From: Xenorhabdus griffiniae
GTDB lineage: Bacteria; Pseudomonadota; Gammaproteobacteria; Enterobacterales; Enterobacteriaceae
Direction of reading: 5' to 3'
DNA length: 64,000 nucleotides
Assembly (NCBI RefSeq): GCF_001028135.1
Contig: NZ_LDNM01000028.1
Location: forward strand, 1-64,000
Shown here: piece after piece, positions 642-6,507 of the stretch
How positions within the stretch are numbered: the stretch's first letter is position 1
Layout: each line of letters starts with the position of its first letter
Notes under the pieces: generated by a model
Told to the model about the DNA's origin: nothing
The model's database searches: none
What the model saw: the letters and a program-made list of their open reading frames with translations, nothing else
Position numbers and translations under genes: made by a program

Positions 642-1649
<1,008 letters not shown>

Positions 1650-1840: not shown

Positions 1841-1897
1841 TCAATCCGGGCCCGAAAAAAACGAATACAACATCTAACAACAAAATAGGGTATTATG

Positions 1898-2971
1898 ATG
1901 AGCAATAATCAAACCAACATATACAGCTTAATCCCTCCATTTGTTCTGGAAAATATCTCTGATGATTGTGATACATATACTAATCAATATGTATTAAAGA
2001 CATTAGATCATGTTTATCAATTGATGAGTACGCCTGCTGAAGAAATTATTTCTCAACAGAATAAACAAGAAACTAAAAAAGAGGTGAACGATAAACCGCA
2101 TCGCACTATCTATGACGCTAAAAATAAAGAGGAATTCCCAGGGGAAGAGTTATCTCGCAGTGAAGGTATGCCAGAGAGTTCAGATGATTCAGTTAATGAG
2201 GCTTATGAGTATATTGGTAAGACTCATGAATTCTATAAAAAAATTTTCGGGCGTAATTCTCTTGATAACAAAGGAATCAAGTTAGTTGCTACCGTACATT
2301 ATGGAAAAAATTATCTGAATGCATTCTGGACCAGAAAACAAATGATATTTGGTGATGGTGATGGAAAATACTTCAATCGTTTTACCTCTGCCATTGATAT
2401 TATCGCTCATGAGTTAACCCACGGTGTTATCGAAAGCGAAGCGGGACTGGATTATATCTATCAGTCTGGTGCACTTAATGAATCTATCTCAGACGTATTT
2501 GGTATTATGGTAAAACAATATGTTAATAACCAAAAAGTCGATGAATCCAATTGGCTATTGGGCCAGGGTCTACTGGGGCTAAAATTTAATCCAGAAAATA
2601 AATCCGAGGTTGGCTTACGCACCTTTATTAACCCCGGAAGCGCATTTTCCGGCGATAAGCAAGTAGGTCATATGGATCTATATGAAGACCTTCCCTTCAT
2701 CATTGATAATGGCGGCGTTCACATACATTCAGGCATTCCTAACAGGGCATTTTATTTAGTGGCGATGGCGTTGGGAGGCTACGCCTGGGAAAAAGCAGGA
2801 AAAATTTGGTATGAAACGTTACTGGACAAACGTCTATCTTCAGATGCAGATTTTGAAGATTTTGCCAGACTGACGATTGATAATGCTGAAAAATTATTCA
2901 GCAAGAAAACGTCAGATATTGTTAGTCATGGTTGGAAAGAAGTTGGTGTTCCACTTTCCGAAGATAAATGA
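1898..2971 (+). CDS. Protealysin/PrtS-like M4 metalloprotease, copy 1
   Basis: A 357-residue zinc metalloprotease of the thermolysin (M4) family. Catalytic features are all present: HELTH at residues 171-175, the third zinc ligand Glu195 in GALNESISD, and the later active-site His near residue 275 in DNGGVHIHSG. There is no signal peptide. Instead the N-terminus carries a short protealysin-type propeptide (IPPFVLENI near residue 12, then LKTLDHVYQLM near 33-43) and a charged linker up to about residue 69. Protealysin-like enzymes are made as cytoplasmic precursors, mature by removal of the propeptide, and include virulence-linked PrtS and actin-cleaving grimelysin. ATG 1898 is preferred over ATG 1895 because the third unit starts at the equivalent ATG (MSNN). 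AGGG serves as ribosome-binding site. Copy 2 lies 229 bp downstream. Confidence 0.92.
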   Translation: MSNNQTNIYSLIPPFVLENISDDCDTYTNQYVLKTLDHVYQLMSTPAEEIISQQNKQETKKEVNDKPHRTIYDAKNKEEFPGEELSRSEGMPESSDDSVNEAYEYIGKTHEFYKKIFGRNSLDNKGIKLVATVHYGKNYLNAFWTRKQMIFGDGDGKYFNRFTSAIDIIAHELTHGVIESEAGLDYIYQSGALNESISDVFGIMVKQYVNNQKVDESNWLLGQGLLGLKFNPENKSEVGLRTFINPGSAFSGDKQVGHMDLYEDLPFIIDNGGVHIHSGIPNRAFYLVAMALGGYAWEKAGKIWYETLLDKRLSSDADFEDFARLTIDNAEKLFSKKTSDIVSHGWKEVGVPLSEDK

Positions 2972-3200: not shown

Positions 3201-4259
3201 ATGCGGAATCATCAAGGTAAATTAAATAAATCTGGCATCATCCCACCATATTTATTGGAATACGTTGTTAAAATTTGTGGCCAAACAGATAAAGCATATA
3301 TATTAAAAACATTAGATCATGTTTACAATCTAATGAATAATCCTGATGAAATGGATATATTAATTCATGGATATCGGCCAGGTTTTGACAATAAATTAAA
3401 TAGAACTATTTACAATGCTGAATATAATGATAAATATCCAGGACATAAATTAATTTTATGCGAAGGCATGACTGTAATTGATGATATTGTAGCCACCGAG
3501 GCTTATAATTATCTTGGTAAAACATATGAGTTTTACAAGGAAATTTTTGGCCGTAATTCTATAGATAACAAGGGGCTTAAATTAGTTGCTACTGTGCATT
3601 ATCAAAAACACTATATGAATGCATTTTGGGATAATAATCAAATGGTCTTCGGTGATGGTTATGCCCCTTATTTTAACTGTTTCACCTCCTGCATTGATAT
3701 TACTGCGCATGAACTCACTCACGGAGTCACTGAAAGTGAAGCAAACCTTGATTATGCCTATCAATCGGGTGCATTAAATGAATCTATCTCAGATGTATTC
3801 GGTATTATGGTAAAACAGTATGCAAACAACCAAAAGGTTAATGAATCTGATTGGTTGATAGGTCAGGGAATATTTGGCCCGGCACTTAATCAGGACAATG
3901 ACCCTAATGTTGCCTTGCGCTCATTCAAAAATCCTGGAACAGCAAATCCGAAAGATAATCAAGTTGGTCATATGGATCAATATCAGGATTTATCCGTCAG
4001 AGATGATAACGGCGGTGTCCACAAGTATTCTGGTATTCCTAATAAGGCATTCTATTTATTGGCAACAGCGTTGGGAGGGTATTCTTGGGAGCAAGCTGGA
4101 AAAATTTGGTATCACACATTATTAGATAAACGATTATCCCATAAAGCCAGTTTTAATGATTTTGCACAGCTAACCGTTGACAATGCTGACACATTATTTG
4201 GCAAGGAAATTTCAGATATTGTGACTCATTCATGGAAACAAGTCGGAACTTTACTCTAA
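3201..4259 (+). CDS. Protealysin/PrtS-like M4 metalloprotease, copy 2
   Basis: A 352-residue tandem paralogue of the preceding protease with an intact active site: HELTH at residues 170-174, Glu194 in GALNESISD, and the downstream histidine in DNGGVHKYSG. The propeptide motifs IIPPYLLEY (near residue 13) and LKTLDHVYNLM (near 35) are kept. There is no signal peptide. The linker between propeptide and catalytic domain differs from copy 1 and is more tyrosine- and asparagine-rich, so the two enzymes may mature differently. The promoter region lacks the conserved -35/-10 arrangement of units 1 and 3, which suggests separate control; a terminator separates it from copy 1. The ribosome-binding site is GGGGG, 9 bases upstream. 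The two enzymes may differ in specificity or timing, but nothing here shows which. Confidence 0.92.
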   Translation: MRNHQGKLNKSGIIPPYLLEYVVKICGQTDKAYILKTLDHVYNLMNNPDEMDILIHGYRPGFDNKLNRTIYNAEYNDKYPGHKLILCEGMTVIDDIVATEAYNYLGKTYEFYKEIFGRNSIDNKGLKLVATVHYQKHYMNAFWDNNQMVFGDGYAPYFNCFTSCIDITAHELTHGVTESEANLDYAYQSGALNESISDVFGIMVKQYANNQKVNESDWLIGQGIFGPALNQDNDPNVALRSFKNPGTANPKDNQVGHMDQYQDLSVRDDNGGVHKYSGIPNKAFYLLATALGGYSWEQAGKIWYHTLLDKRLSHKASFNDFAQLTVDNADTLFGKEISDIVTHSWKQVGTLL

Positions 4260-4283: not shown

Positions 4284-4305
4284 TCAAGACCAGGGAAGGT
4301 CTTGA
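4284..4305 (+). terminator. Terminator after protease copy 2
   Basis: A perfect 8-bp stem, TCAAGACC (4284-4291) with GGTCTTGA (4298-4305) and a 6-base loop, lies 24 bases after the stop codon. The following T-run is weak and interrupted. Confidence 0.5.
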
Positions 4306-4392
4306 TTACGTTTATATATTTATCCTTAATTTAATTAAGCTAATCATCTTATCCCGCCATGCCATATCATAAAAAAATTTACATTTTTAGTA

Positions 4393-4421
4393 GTGACTAA
4401 CATGGTTAGTTTGGCTACTAT
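4393..4421 (+). promoter_or_regulatory. Predicted promoter of the propeptide-only gene
   Basis: GTGACT (4393-4398), a 17-base spacer and TACTAT (4416-4421) match the arrangement upstream of protease copy 1 in sequence and spacing. A start of transcription near 4428 would place the CATAA repeat tract inside the untranslated leader. Confidence 0.5.
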
Positions 4422-4460
4422 TCATATTCGGCCAAATATACACCAACACCATAACATAAA

Positions 4461-4515
4461 CATAACATAACATAACATAACATAACATAACATAACATAA
4501 CATAACATAACATAA
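4461..4515 (+). repeat. CATAA pentanucleotide tandem repeat, 11 perfect units
   Basis: Eleven uninterrupted copies of CATAA run from 4461 to 4515, with imperfect copies on the left (ATAACATAAA, 4451-4460) and a degenerate CATAG on the right. The tract lies between the predicted promoter and the ribosome-binding site (AAGG near 4530) of the propeptide-only gene. The equivalent leader of protease copy 1 has no such tract. Short tandem repeats of this purity change length readily by slipped-strand mispairing. Confidence 0.95.
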
Positions 4516-4540
4516 CATAGATACAAAATAAGGCATTATC

Positions 4541-4762
4541 ATGAGTAATAATAAAGCAATAAAACAAAATATAATCCCCCCTTATTTATTGGAGTATCTT
4601 GCAAAAACCTGTAATGCTAATGACAAAGAGTATGTTTTGAACACATTAGATCATGTCAATAAACTCATGAAGCAATCAACCAAAGAAGAGGCCTTAAACT
4701 CTGAGGATGATCCTTTATTGTATAAAAACAGAAAAAATCCTGAACCAGAAGATAGCTATTAA
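4541..4762 (+). CDS. Standalone protealysin-type propeptide (73 aa)
   Basis: A 73-residue protein matching only the propeptide of the two upstream M4 proteases: IIPPYLLEYLAKTC near residues 11-24 and LNTLDHVNKLM near 33-43. It then ends with its own acidic, proline-containing tail (NPEPEDSY). No HExxH or other catalytic sequence follows before the terminator. The start region (AAGG, then ATGAGTAATAAT) matches protease copy 1, as do the promoter and terminator. The unit therefore looks like a copy of unit 1 from which the catalytic domain was removed while the reading frame stayed open. In M4 proteases the propeptide inhibits and helps fold the enzyme. A free propeptide acting in trans on copies 1 and 2 is an inference; a non-functional remnant is the alternative. 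Confidence 0.75.
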   Translation: MSNNKAIKQNIIPPYLLEYLAKTCNANDKEYVLNTLDHVNKLMKQSTKEEALNSEDDPLLYKNRKNPEPEDSY

Positions 4763-5010: not shown

Positions 5011-6507
5011 TTACCGTTTTTTCATATGTTCCATTAAACGTTTACGTTTACGGAGCTGAGTTGCTGTTAATGTATTTTTCTTATCCGCATAAGGGTTAGC
5101 CCCTTCTTTAAATTGGATGCGGATAGGTGTTCCCATCACTTTCAAAGAACGACGGAAATAATTCATCAAATAACGCTTATAGGAATCAGGTAAATTTGTT
5201 ACTTGATTACCGTGGATAACCACGATAGGTGGGTTATGGCCACCCGCATGGGCATATTTCATTTTCACCCTACGACCACGGATCATTGGCGGCTGGTGAT
5301 CATCTTCTGCCATGCGCATTATACGAGTCAATAAGGAAGTACTAACGCGGCGGGTTGCACTTTCATAGGCTTCCTGAATTGATTCAAATAAATTCCCGAC
5401 ACCACTACCATGTAGCGCGGAAATAAAGTGAAGACGGGCAAAATCAACAAAACCCAAACGCAGCTCAAGCATATCTTTGACATGATCTTTGTCTTCCTGA
5501 CTCATACCATCCCATTTGTTGATGGCGATAACCAGAGAACGACCACTGTTAAGAATAAAACCAAGCAGAGAAAGATCTTGATCAGAAATGCCTTCACGGG
5601 CATCCACTACCAGTAATACAACATTGGCATCTTCAATCGCCTGGAGCGTTTTAATCACAGAGAATTTTTCAACTGTTTCAGTGACTTTTCCACGCTTACG
5701 AACGCCCGCTGTATCAATCAGAATATATTCACGGCCATCACGCTCCATGGGAATATAAATGCTGTCACGGGTCGTACCTGGCAAATCATAAACGACAACA
5801 CGCTCTTCACCGAGGATACGGTTGGTTAATGTGGATTTACCCACATTAGGGCGGCCAACAATCGCAAGTTTCAGAGGCAAGGTTGTGGGATCAAATGCCT
5901 CCTCCTCTTTTTCCTGTTCAGCAGAAGCCTCCAATTCGGCTTGCTCCATTTCGGCCCAATAAGCTGCGTTTGCTTCTTCTTCCGTTAATTCAACGTCTTC
6001 TTCTGTTTCTTCTTTGTCAGAAAACGGCAACAACACACGTTCAATCAGTTGTGTTACCCCCCGGCCGTGAGAAGCCGCGATGGAATAAACATCCCCTAAA
6101 CCGAGTGAATAAAACTCAGCTACCGAGATATCAATATCGATACCATCGGTTTTATTCGCCACCAGAAAAGTTGCTTTTTCACGGCTACGCAAATGCTTGG
6201 CAATCGCATGATCAGCAGGCATCAATCCCGATCTGGCATCAACCATAAATAGAACAATGTCCGCCTCTTCTATGGCCATCAGGGATTGCGTAGCCATATG
6301 CGTTTCTACTCCCTCTTCCATACCATCGATACCGCCCGTATCAATGATGATGAATTCTTGCCCTTCAACCTCTGCCCGTCCATATTTACGATCACGGGTT
6401 AAGCCAGGGAAATCCGCTACCAGCGCATCTCTGGTTCGGGTTAATCGGTTAAATAAGGTGGATTTTCCAACATTGGGGCGCCCAACCAGCGCAACGACAG
6501 GTATCAT
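5011..6507 (-). CDS. der: Ribosome biogenesis GTPase Der (EngA)
   Basis: Der is the essential double-GTPase that binds the 50S ribosomal subunit during its maturation. The 498-residue protein has two tandem Era-like G domains, each with the P-loop GRPNVGKST (residues 8-16 and again near 218), DTGG/DTAG switch motifs, and NKTDG/NKWDG base-recognition motifs. A C-terminal KH-like domain ends in a strongly basic tail ([13 protein letters not shown]). An acidic linker rich in Glu separates the two G domains. The gene follows bamB on the same strand as in E. coli, with a terminator between them. Confidence 0.97.

Follow-up and report, generated by a model that had tools for sequence, protein, structure and literature searches.

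Why should a bacterial genome carry a gene for the propeptide of a protease, and for nothing more of that protease, beside two genes for the complete enzyme? The question is raised by a locus of Xenorhabdus griffiniae within the first 64,000 nucleotides of contig NZ_LDNM01000028.1 (the window, as we call this whole stretch of DNA), in which two proteases of the protealysin type, P1 and P2, are followed by a small open reading frame, F. The initial annotation had proposed that F is a free propeptide that could inhibit or chaperone its neighbours in trans. The locus is made up as follows.

729..1649, forward strand: open reading frame that we take to be HemF, the upstream border of the locus.
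1895..2971, forward strand: P1, protealysin-type M4 protease with its own propeptide (Pfam Peptidase_M4 and Peptidase_M4_C; P1 clade in the catalytic tree).
3201..4259, forward strand: P2, protealysin-type M4 protease with its own propeptide (Pfam Peptidase_M4 and Peptidase_M4_C).
4284..4305, forward strand: terminator-like stem-loop after P2 (pattern scan; weak, as 2 such sites were found where shuffles predict 1.8).
4374..4423, forward strand: conserved block of 50 bp, probably the own promoter of F (nhmmer).
4450..4519, forward strand: pentanucleotide repeat (CATAA), 13.8 copies, between the block and the start of F (TRF).
4541..4762, forward strand: F, stand-alone protealysin-type propeptide of 73 aa (open reading frame with ATG start; PF16485, 1.7e-14).
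4565..4687, forward strand: PLN_propep domain of F, residues 9-49 (Pfam; AF2 model).
4571..4597, forward strand: IIPPYLLEY of F, in which lies the PPL-type motif seen in protealysin propeptides.
4673..4759, forward strand: variable C-terminal tail of F, residues 45-73, standing in for the linker and the RxIY start of the mature enzyme.
5011..6507, reverse strand: converging open reading frame, presumably the Der GTPase, the downstream border of the locus.

The product of F carries IPPYLLEY and LNTLDHVNKLM, just as the initial annotation had described, and its residues 9-49 match PLN_propep (PF16485) with 53.7 bits against a cut-off of 28.1, thereby outscoring the cis propeptides of both neighbouring enzymes (42.6 and 36 bits). 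A Shine-Dalgarno-like AAGG, read from the sequence, ends 7 bases 5' of its ATG. The claim that a catalytic domain is lacking holds as well: Pfam finds no Peptidase_M4 match in F, which ends after propeptide and tail, and confirms the two upstream enzymes as M4 proteases; nor does it find an emfourin (PF20242) match in F of the window or in the 28 F proteins of the genus described below. The AF2 model predicts helices at residues 14-23 and 26-53, that is, a two-helix core following the PPL-type motif, with block means of 88-93 over residues 11-40, and predicts disorder for residues 54-73 (pLDDT <50). When the isolated model of F was used in a fold search against the PDB, zero matches were returned at E <= 0.001, the protealysin precursor (2vqx) being absent from the list; the pro-form of P2 does retrieve 2vqx. 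This structure is the best solved relative of P2 (E 1.2e-90), whose AF2 model (pLDDT 84) aligns with it over 344 columns (TM 0.91 by target length), and the HExxH motif and the downstream Glu are invariant in an alignment of 43 rows, P1 and P2 included. By eye, F, P1, and P2 are all devoid of an obvious signal peptide, which fits a cytoplasmic role. The sole other listed Pfam match of F in the window (4559-4684) is to BrxL_N, the N-terminal domain of the BREX Lon-like protein, at 16.9 bits, below the family cut-off; similarly weak matches are present in 17 of the 28 F proteins (best E 5.4e-4), and the two domains are possibly distantly related.

Searching 30 Xenorhabdus genomes with the PF16485 profile uncovered the open homologues in related strains on which the first proposal depended. 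An open F of 63-80 residues is encoded in 28 of them, X. thuongxuanensis, X. sp. BG5, X. kozodoii, and X. lircayensis among the confirmed loci, and it is always found downstream of at least one protealysin-type protease (28/28); the other two (G008 and G015) cannot be scored, as their contigs end about 100 bp after P1. All 28 genome matches exceed the PLN_propep cut-off, all 28 proteins have the Pfam match (best 4.8e-21), and F outscores the other PLN_propep matches of its own genome in 27 cases, the exception being G025, where a protease scores 0.4 bits higher. HemF is located upstream in 30/30 genomes and Der downstream of F in 27/30, with contigs ending in the other three, so that the order HemF-protease(s)-F-Der is seen in 27/30. 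Five genomes have kept one protease type, either P1 (G003, G004) or P2 (G021, G024, G026), and F is present in all five. In G007 (L073, 3530-3922) the P2 frame is interrupted after approximately 130 codons, P1 and F being open.

The PPL-type motif of the covalent propeptide is conserved in nearly all F proteins, and the RxIY start of the mature enzyme is found in none. PP..L/I is kept in 27/28 F, 27/27 P1, and 19/26 P2 sequences, and the stricter PP[YFH].L/I in 25, 27, and 11 of these, respectively, while an II/IV pair precedes the PP motif in 28/28 F. The RxIY-type motif with which the catalytic part of P1 and P2 starts is present in 27/27 P1 and 26/26 P2 and in 0/28 F. The rows from other genera in this count (28 of 30) were picked for holding IPPY, and their 28/28 thus says little. 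The P2 propeptides from which PP..L/I is missing (7/26; for example, L068, L070, L071, L074, and L090) suggest, as far as sequence can tell, that inhibition in cis has been relaxed in some P2 lineages.

The purifying selection anticipated for F is found in its core, where the median dN/dS is 0.195 (Nei-Gojobori; 222 usable of 378 pairs), compared with 0.160 and 0.158 for the cis propeptide cores of P1 and P2 and 0.098 and 0.086 for their catalytic domains (P2 of G024 and the interrupted P2 of G007 are not part of this set). The ends of F are its fastest-evolving parts: the median is 0.73 at the N-terminus and 0.79 in the tail. In 13 near-neighbour pairs, picked greedily by distance rather than from a tree, synonymous changes are in excess in the core at p = 2e-11, 1.8e-7, and 7.8e-5 for kappa of 1, 2, and 4, and the same test gives p = 0.00057, 0.023, and 0.2 for the tail. 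F is a real, conserved gene under purifying selection in its core and is probably functional as a stand-alone propeptide.

The gene also appears to have its own regulatory region. The 50-bp block lies before the F start in 28/28 genomes, of which the 24 used in building the nhmmer model match by construction and the four held out (the window, G010, G013, and G017) match as well. The distance from block to F is 44-71 bp in 25 genomes, 239 in G025, and 275 in G012, these last two (L090 and L074) having some 200 bp of extra sequence in between, and in the window it is 118 owing to the expansion of CATAA, a repeat that none of the other 27 intergenic regions compared contains and that could tune or switch the expression of F. 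By eye, the block resembles a promoter (GTGACT at 4393-4398, 17 nt, TACTAT at 4416-4421), with a palindrome, CTAACatgGTTAG (4397-4409), in the spacer; a scan with a consensus promoter did not flag it (7 sites versus 18.3 expected in shuffles). A promoter common to F and P1, suspected by eye, is a possibility with which weak nhmmer matches are consistent (0.0071 in G003, 0.11 in G004, 2.4 in G019). As P2 and F are separated by about 280 bp, with a terminator-like site in between, expression of F may not be coupled to that of the proteases, and this weak site, along with the conserved block, suggests that F probably has its own transcript.

What F might be doing in this position is best seen from the relatives of Xenorhabdus. 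The protealysin operon of Serratia is reported to encode emfourin, an inhibitor of protealysin that binds the active-site region of the enzyme 1:1, and actin cleavage went from 40% to 65% in Serratia extracts without emfourin (PMC9505478, excerpt). In a sample of 149 genomes of the GTDB family, approximately one per genus, PLN_propep was found in 39 non-Xenorhabdus genomes, with one match each, in frames of 146-406 aa, and emfourin in 40 genomes. In 38 of the 39 the two are present together; they share contig and strand, and the emfourin match begins 1002-1323 bp downstream of that to PLN_propep. In an order-level sample of 394 genomes, partly overlapping with the former, PLN_propep and emfourin occur, outside Xenorhabdus, in the same 15 genomes. 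Both are also present in 12/12 genomes of the nearest genus sampled, probably Photorhabdus, a representative of which (G166) shows 76, 85, and 88% identity to the window locus in HemF, GNAT, and Der, respectively, and has the order GNAT-HemF-protease-emfourin-Der, matching that of the window; protease-emfourin-Der is the order in 9/12 fetched loci from other genera. In Xenorhabdus, emfourin exceeds the cut-off in 0/30 genomes, with six weak matches below it, and a six-frame search with a model built from six emfourins revealed no remnant in the 30 loci, the held-out controls (L151 and L154) being detected. F and emfourin are thus mutually exclusive in these genomes, and, the slot between protease and der being the same across the relatives and Xenorhabdus, F stands where emfourin stood. 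As the swap is one event in one genus, the genome counts overstate its statistical weight. Other arrangements were also encountered. In G042 (L152, 4480-5030) a protealysin-type protease is followed by Der, with neither an emfourin match nor a free propeptide and with an unrelated-looking gap before Der, indicating that loss of emfourin needs no replacement. Two genomes, G054 and G140 (L153 and L154), have emfourin and no PLN_propep match, and emfourin adjoins Der in L153.

Free propeptides of this kind appear to be a property of Xenorhabdus in all the samples searched. The family sample contains no short free PLN_propep frame outside this genus, and no free propeptide above the cut-off was detected outside it in the order sample or in the 12 genomes of the nearest genus, so that the search initially suggested for Xenorhabdus and Photorhabdus succeeded in the former (beside proteases in 28/30 genomes) and gave nothing above the cut-off in what is probably the latter. 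A sub-cut-off frame of 53 aa with a stop was noted in G923, at a distance of some 86 kb from the protease and on the same contig. No other short frame was found among the PF16485 matches of a class sample (369 genomes), and the three found in a phylum sample (299 genomes) are all below the cut-off, two of them with a stop. Used as a query, F retrieved few short frames from the 149 family genomes, all weak (E 0.28 or more), and no match from plasmids in a protein search at E <= 0.01; of 21 pattern hits of the F alignment in viral contigs, none was confirmed. Weak class-level hits of PF16485 (20-25 bits) were discarded; of eight such loci below the cut-off that were translated (L143-L150), three (L145, L148, and L150) encode a protein that we take to be similar to tryptophanyl-tRNA synthetase. 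A weak fourth PLN_propep hit in the genome of the window (C87, E 0.018), inside an open reading frame of 701 aa presumably resembling a tail-specific protease, was taken as chance.

The explanation that we favour, at a probability of roughly 60%, is that F is a dedicated propeptide and inhibitor acting in trans, encoded by a gene of its own that was born by partial duplication and that replaced emfourin. Since F retains the PPL motif and the II/IV pair, the simplest assumption is that it binds in the manner of the covalent propeptide and is inhibitory in trans: its two-helix core would sit on mature P1 or P2, the PPL motif occupying the active-site cleft, and it would keep inactive, in the cytoplasm, enzyme that is without its own propeptide. 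In the 2vqx structure, this motif reportedly contacts the S' subsites. As it lacks both a catalytic domain and a maturation site, F would escape consumption by self-processing, and it would have taken over the slot of emfourin and probably its job. The protease may trim F before II-PP, and a cleavage site before the PPL motif of protealysin propeptides is described in an excerpt of PMC6778150. We would go further with less assurance than this, at somewhat under even odds, and suggest that one lineage dropped emfourin and rebuilt its function from the propeptide of the enzyme itself, released as a separate gene and furnished with its own promoter, and that protease-trimmed F may be a product-like inhibitor reporting active protease.

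Propeptides assist the folding of proteases, and F could instead be an intermolecular chaperone helping P1 and P2 to fold, for example by offsetting the drift of P2 propeptides, a proposal with which the loss of PP..L/I from 7/26 of these, as opposed to its retention in 27/28 F, would agree. We consider it unlikely, as the dN/dS of about 0.16 in the P1 and P2 propeptides indicates continuing selection for help in cis, F is also found in G003 and G004, where P1 is the one protease type and has a propeptide with the motif intact, and the emfourin swap is left unexplained. Slightly less probable still is that F has acquired a new target, such as another protease of the cell, a protease of the host, or a non-protease partner, its position beside the proteases being simply inherited. 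The conserved upstream block and variable tail, both its own, and the weak BrxL_N matches could be read in this way; the constant association with at least one protealysin-type protease, the positions shared with protease propeptides, and the emfourin slot all argue for the same target. It has also been suggested that protealysin is an effector in interbacterial competition, with emfourin as its immunity protein (PMC9505478, excerpt), and by extension F could protect from protealysin-type enzymes of neighbouring cells rather than control those of its own; this we regard as improbable, since self-control explains the linkage to P1 and P2 more simply. The least credible proposal, that F is what remains of a third protease gene in decay, draws on the homology of F to the 5' portion of its neighbours and is rejected, together with a chance origin of the frame, by a frame open in all 28 scorable loci of the 30 genomes, by purifying selection on the core, and by the conserved upstream block. 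The initial annotation had also argued against simple decay, and its conclusion stands on the core and the block; the distinct tail on which it had relied, fast-evolving and predicted to be disordered, is a weak argument.

As to the origin of F, in a quick tree of catalytic domains (a short search with 17/30 genomes of the genus and 15/30 loci from other genera, of which L121 dropped out), P1, P2, and the proteases of other genera each occupy one side of a branch, with supports of 78, 99, and 100, and the protease duplication thus appears to be internal to the Xenorhabdus line. In a propeptide tree, weak with its 40 columns, F is not one group when the search is free; held as one clade it is not rejected (p-AU 0.518, log-likelihood 1.9 higher). 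This tree includes 29/30 loci from other genera, two of which, L120 and L123, have very long branches, their slice probably being out of register. F may have arisen near the base of Xenorhabdus, probably once, its source being a duplicated 5' part of a gene for a protealysin-type protease (the ribosome binding site and the propeptide, perhaps with the promoter).

Judged by its sequence, F is a member of the stand-alone propeptide-like class, being encoded by a conserved gene of its own, with homology to a propeptide and no catalytic domain. The release of a propeptide domain as a separate protein is known from the inhibitor families I9 and I29, which are eukaryotic stand-alone propeptide inhibitors, and from free PepSY-domain proteins, all of which belong to other protease families or contain a different propeptide domain. 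F shares with the protealysin propeptide (PF16485; 2vqx) the domain, as recognized by the profile, the PPL-type motif, and, in the models of F and P2, a similar order of helices, but differs from it in being a separate gene, without a catalytic domain or an RxIY start and with an extra variable tail. It shares with Serratia emfourin (M4in, PF20242) the slot between protease and der, the small size, and, as we propose, the job, but not the domain, as F matches PLN_propep and not emfourin. A precedent is SUB1-ProM of Plasmodium, a stand-alone propeptide-like inhibitor encoded by a conserved syntenic gene beside its proteases, and thus an example of such inhibitors already known in eukaryotes; it belongs to the subtilisin family, with an unrelated fold, and is reported to inhibit (PMC6993865, excerpt), F being a putative inhibitor. 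In the open-licence literature we found neither a report of a stand-alone propeptide inhibitor for M4 or protealysin-type enzymes or in bacteria, nor an account of a bacterial M4 free propeptide replacing an unrelated inhibitor.

If the proposed replacement is true, the Xenorhabdus locus presents a natural experiment, in which two unrelated proteins have been employed at one locus for one task, and exchanging them would test whether that task is the intracellular control of protealysin. F would also be a candidate for a short inhibitor of enzymes of the protealysin type, which draw interest through their probable involvement in pathogenesis (PMC6778150, excerpt).
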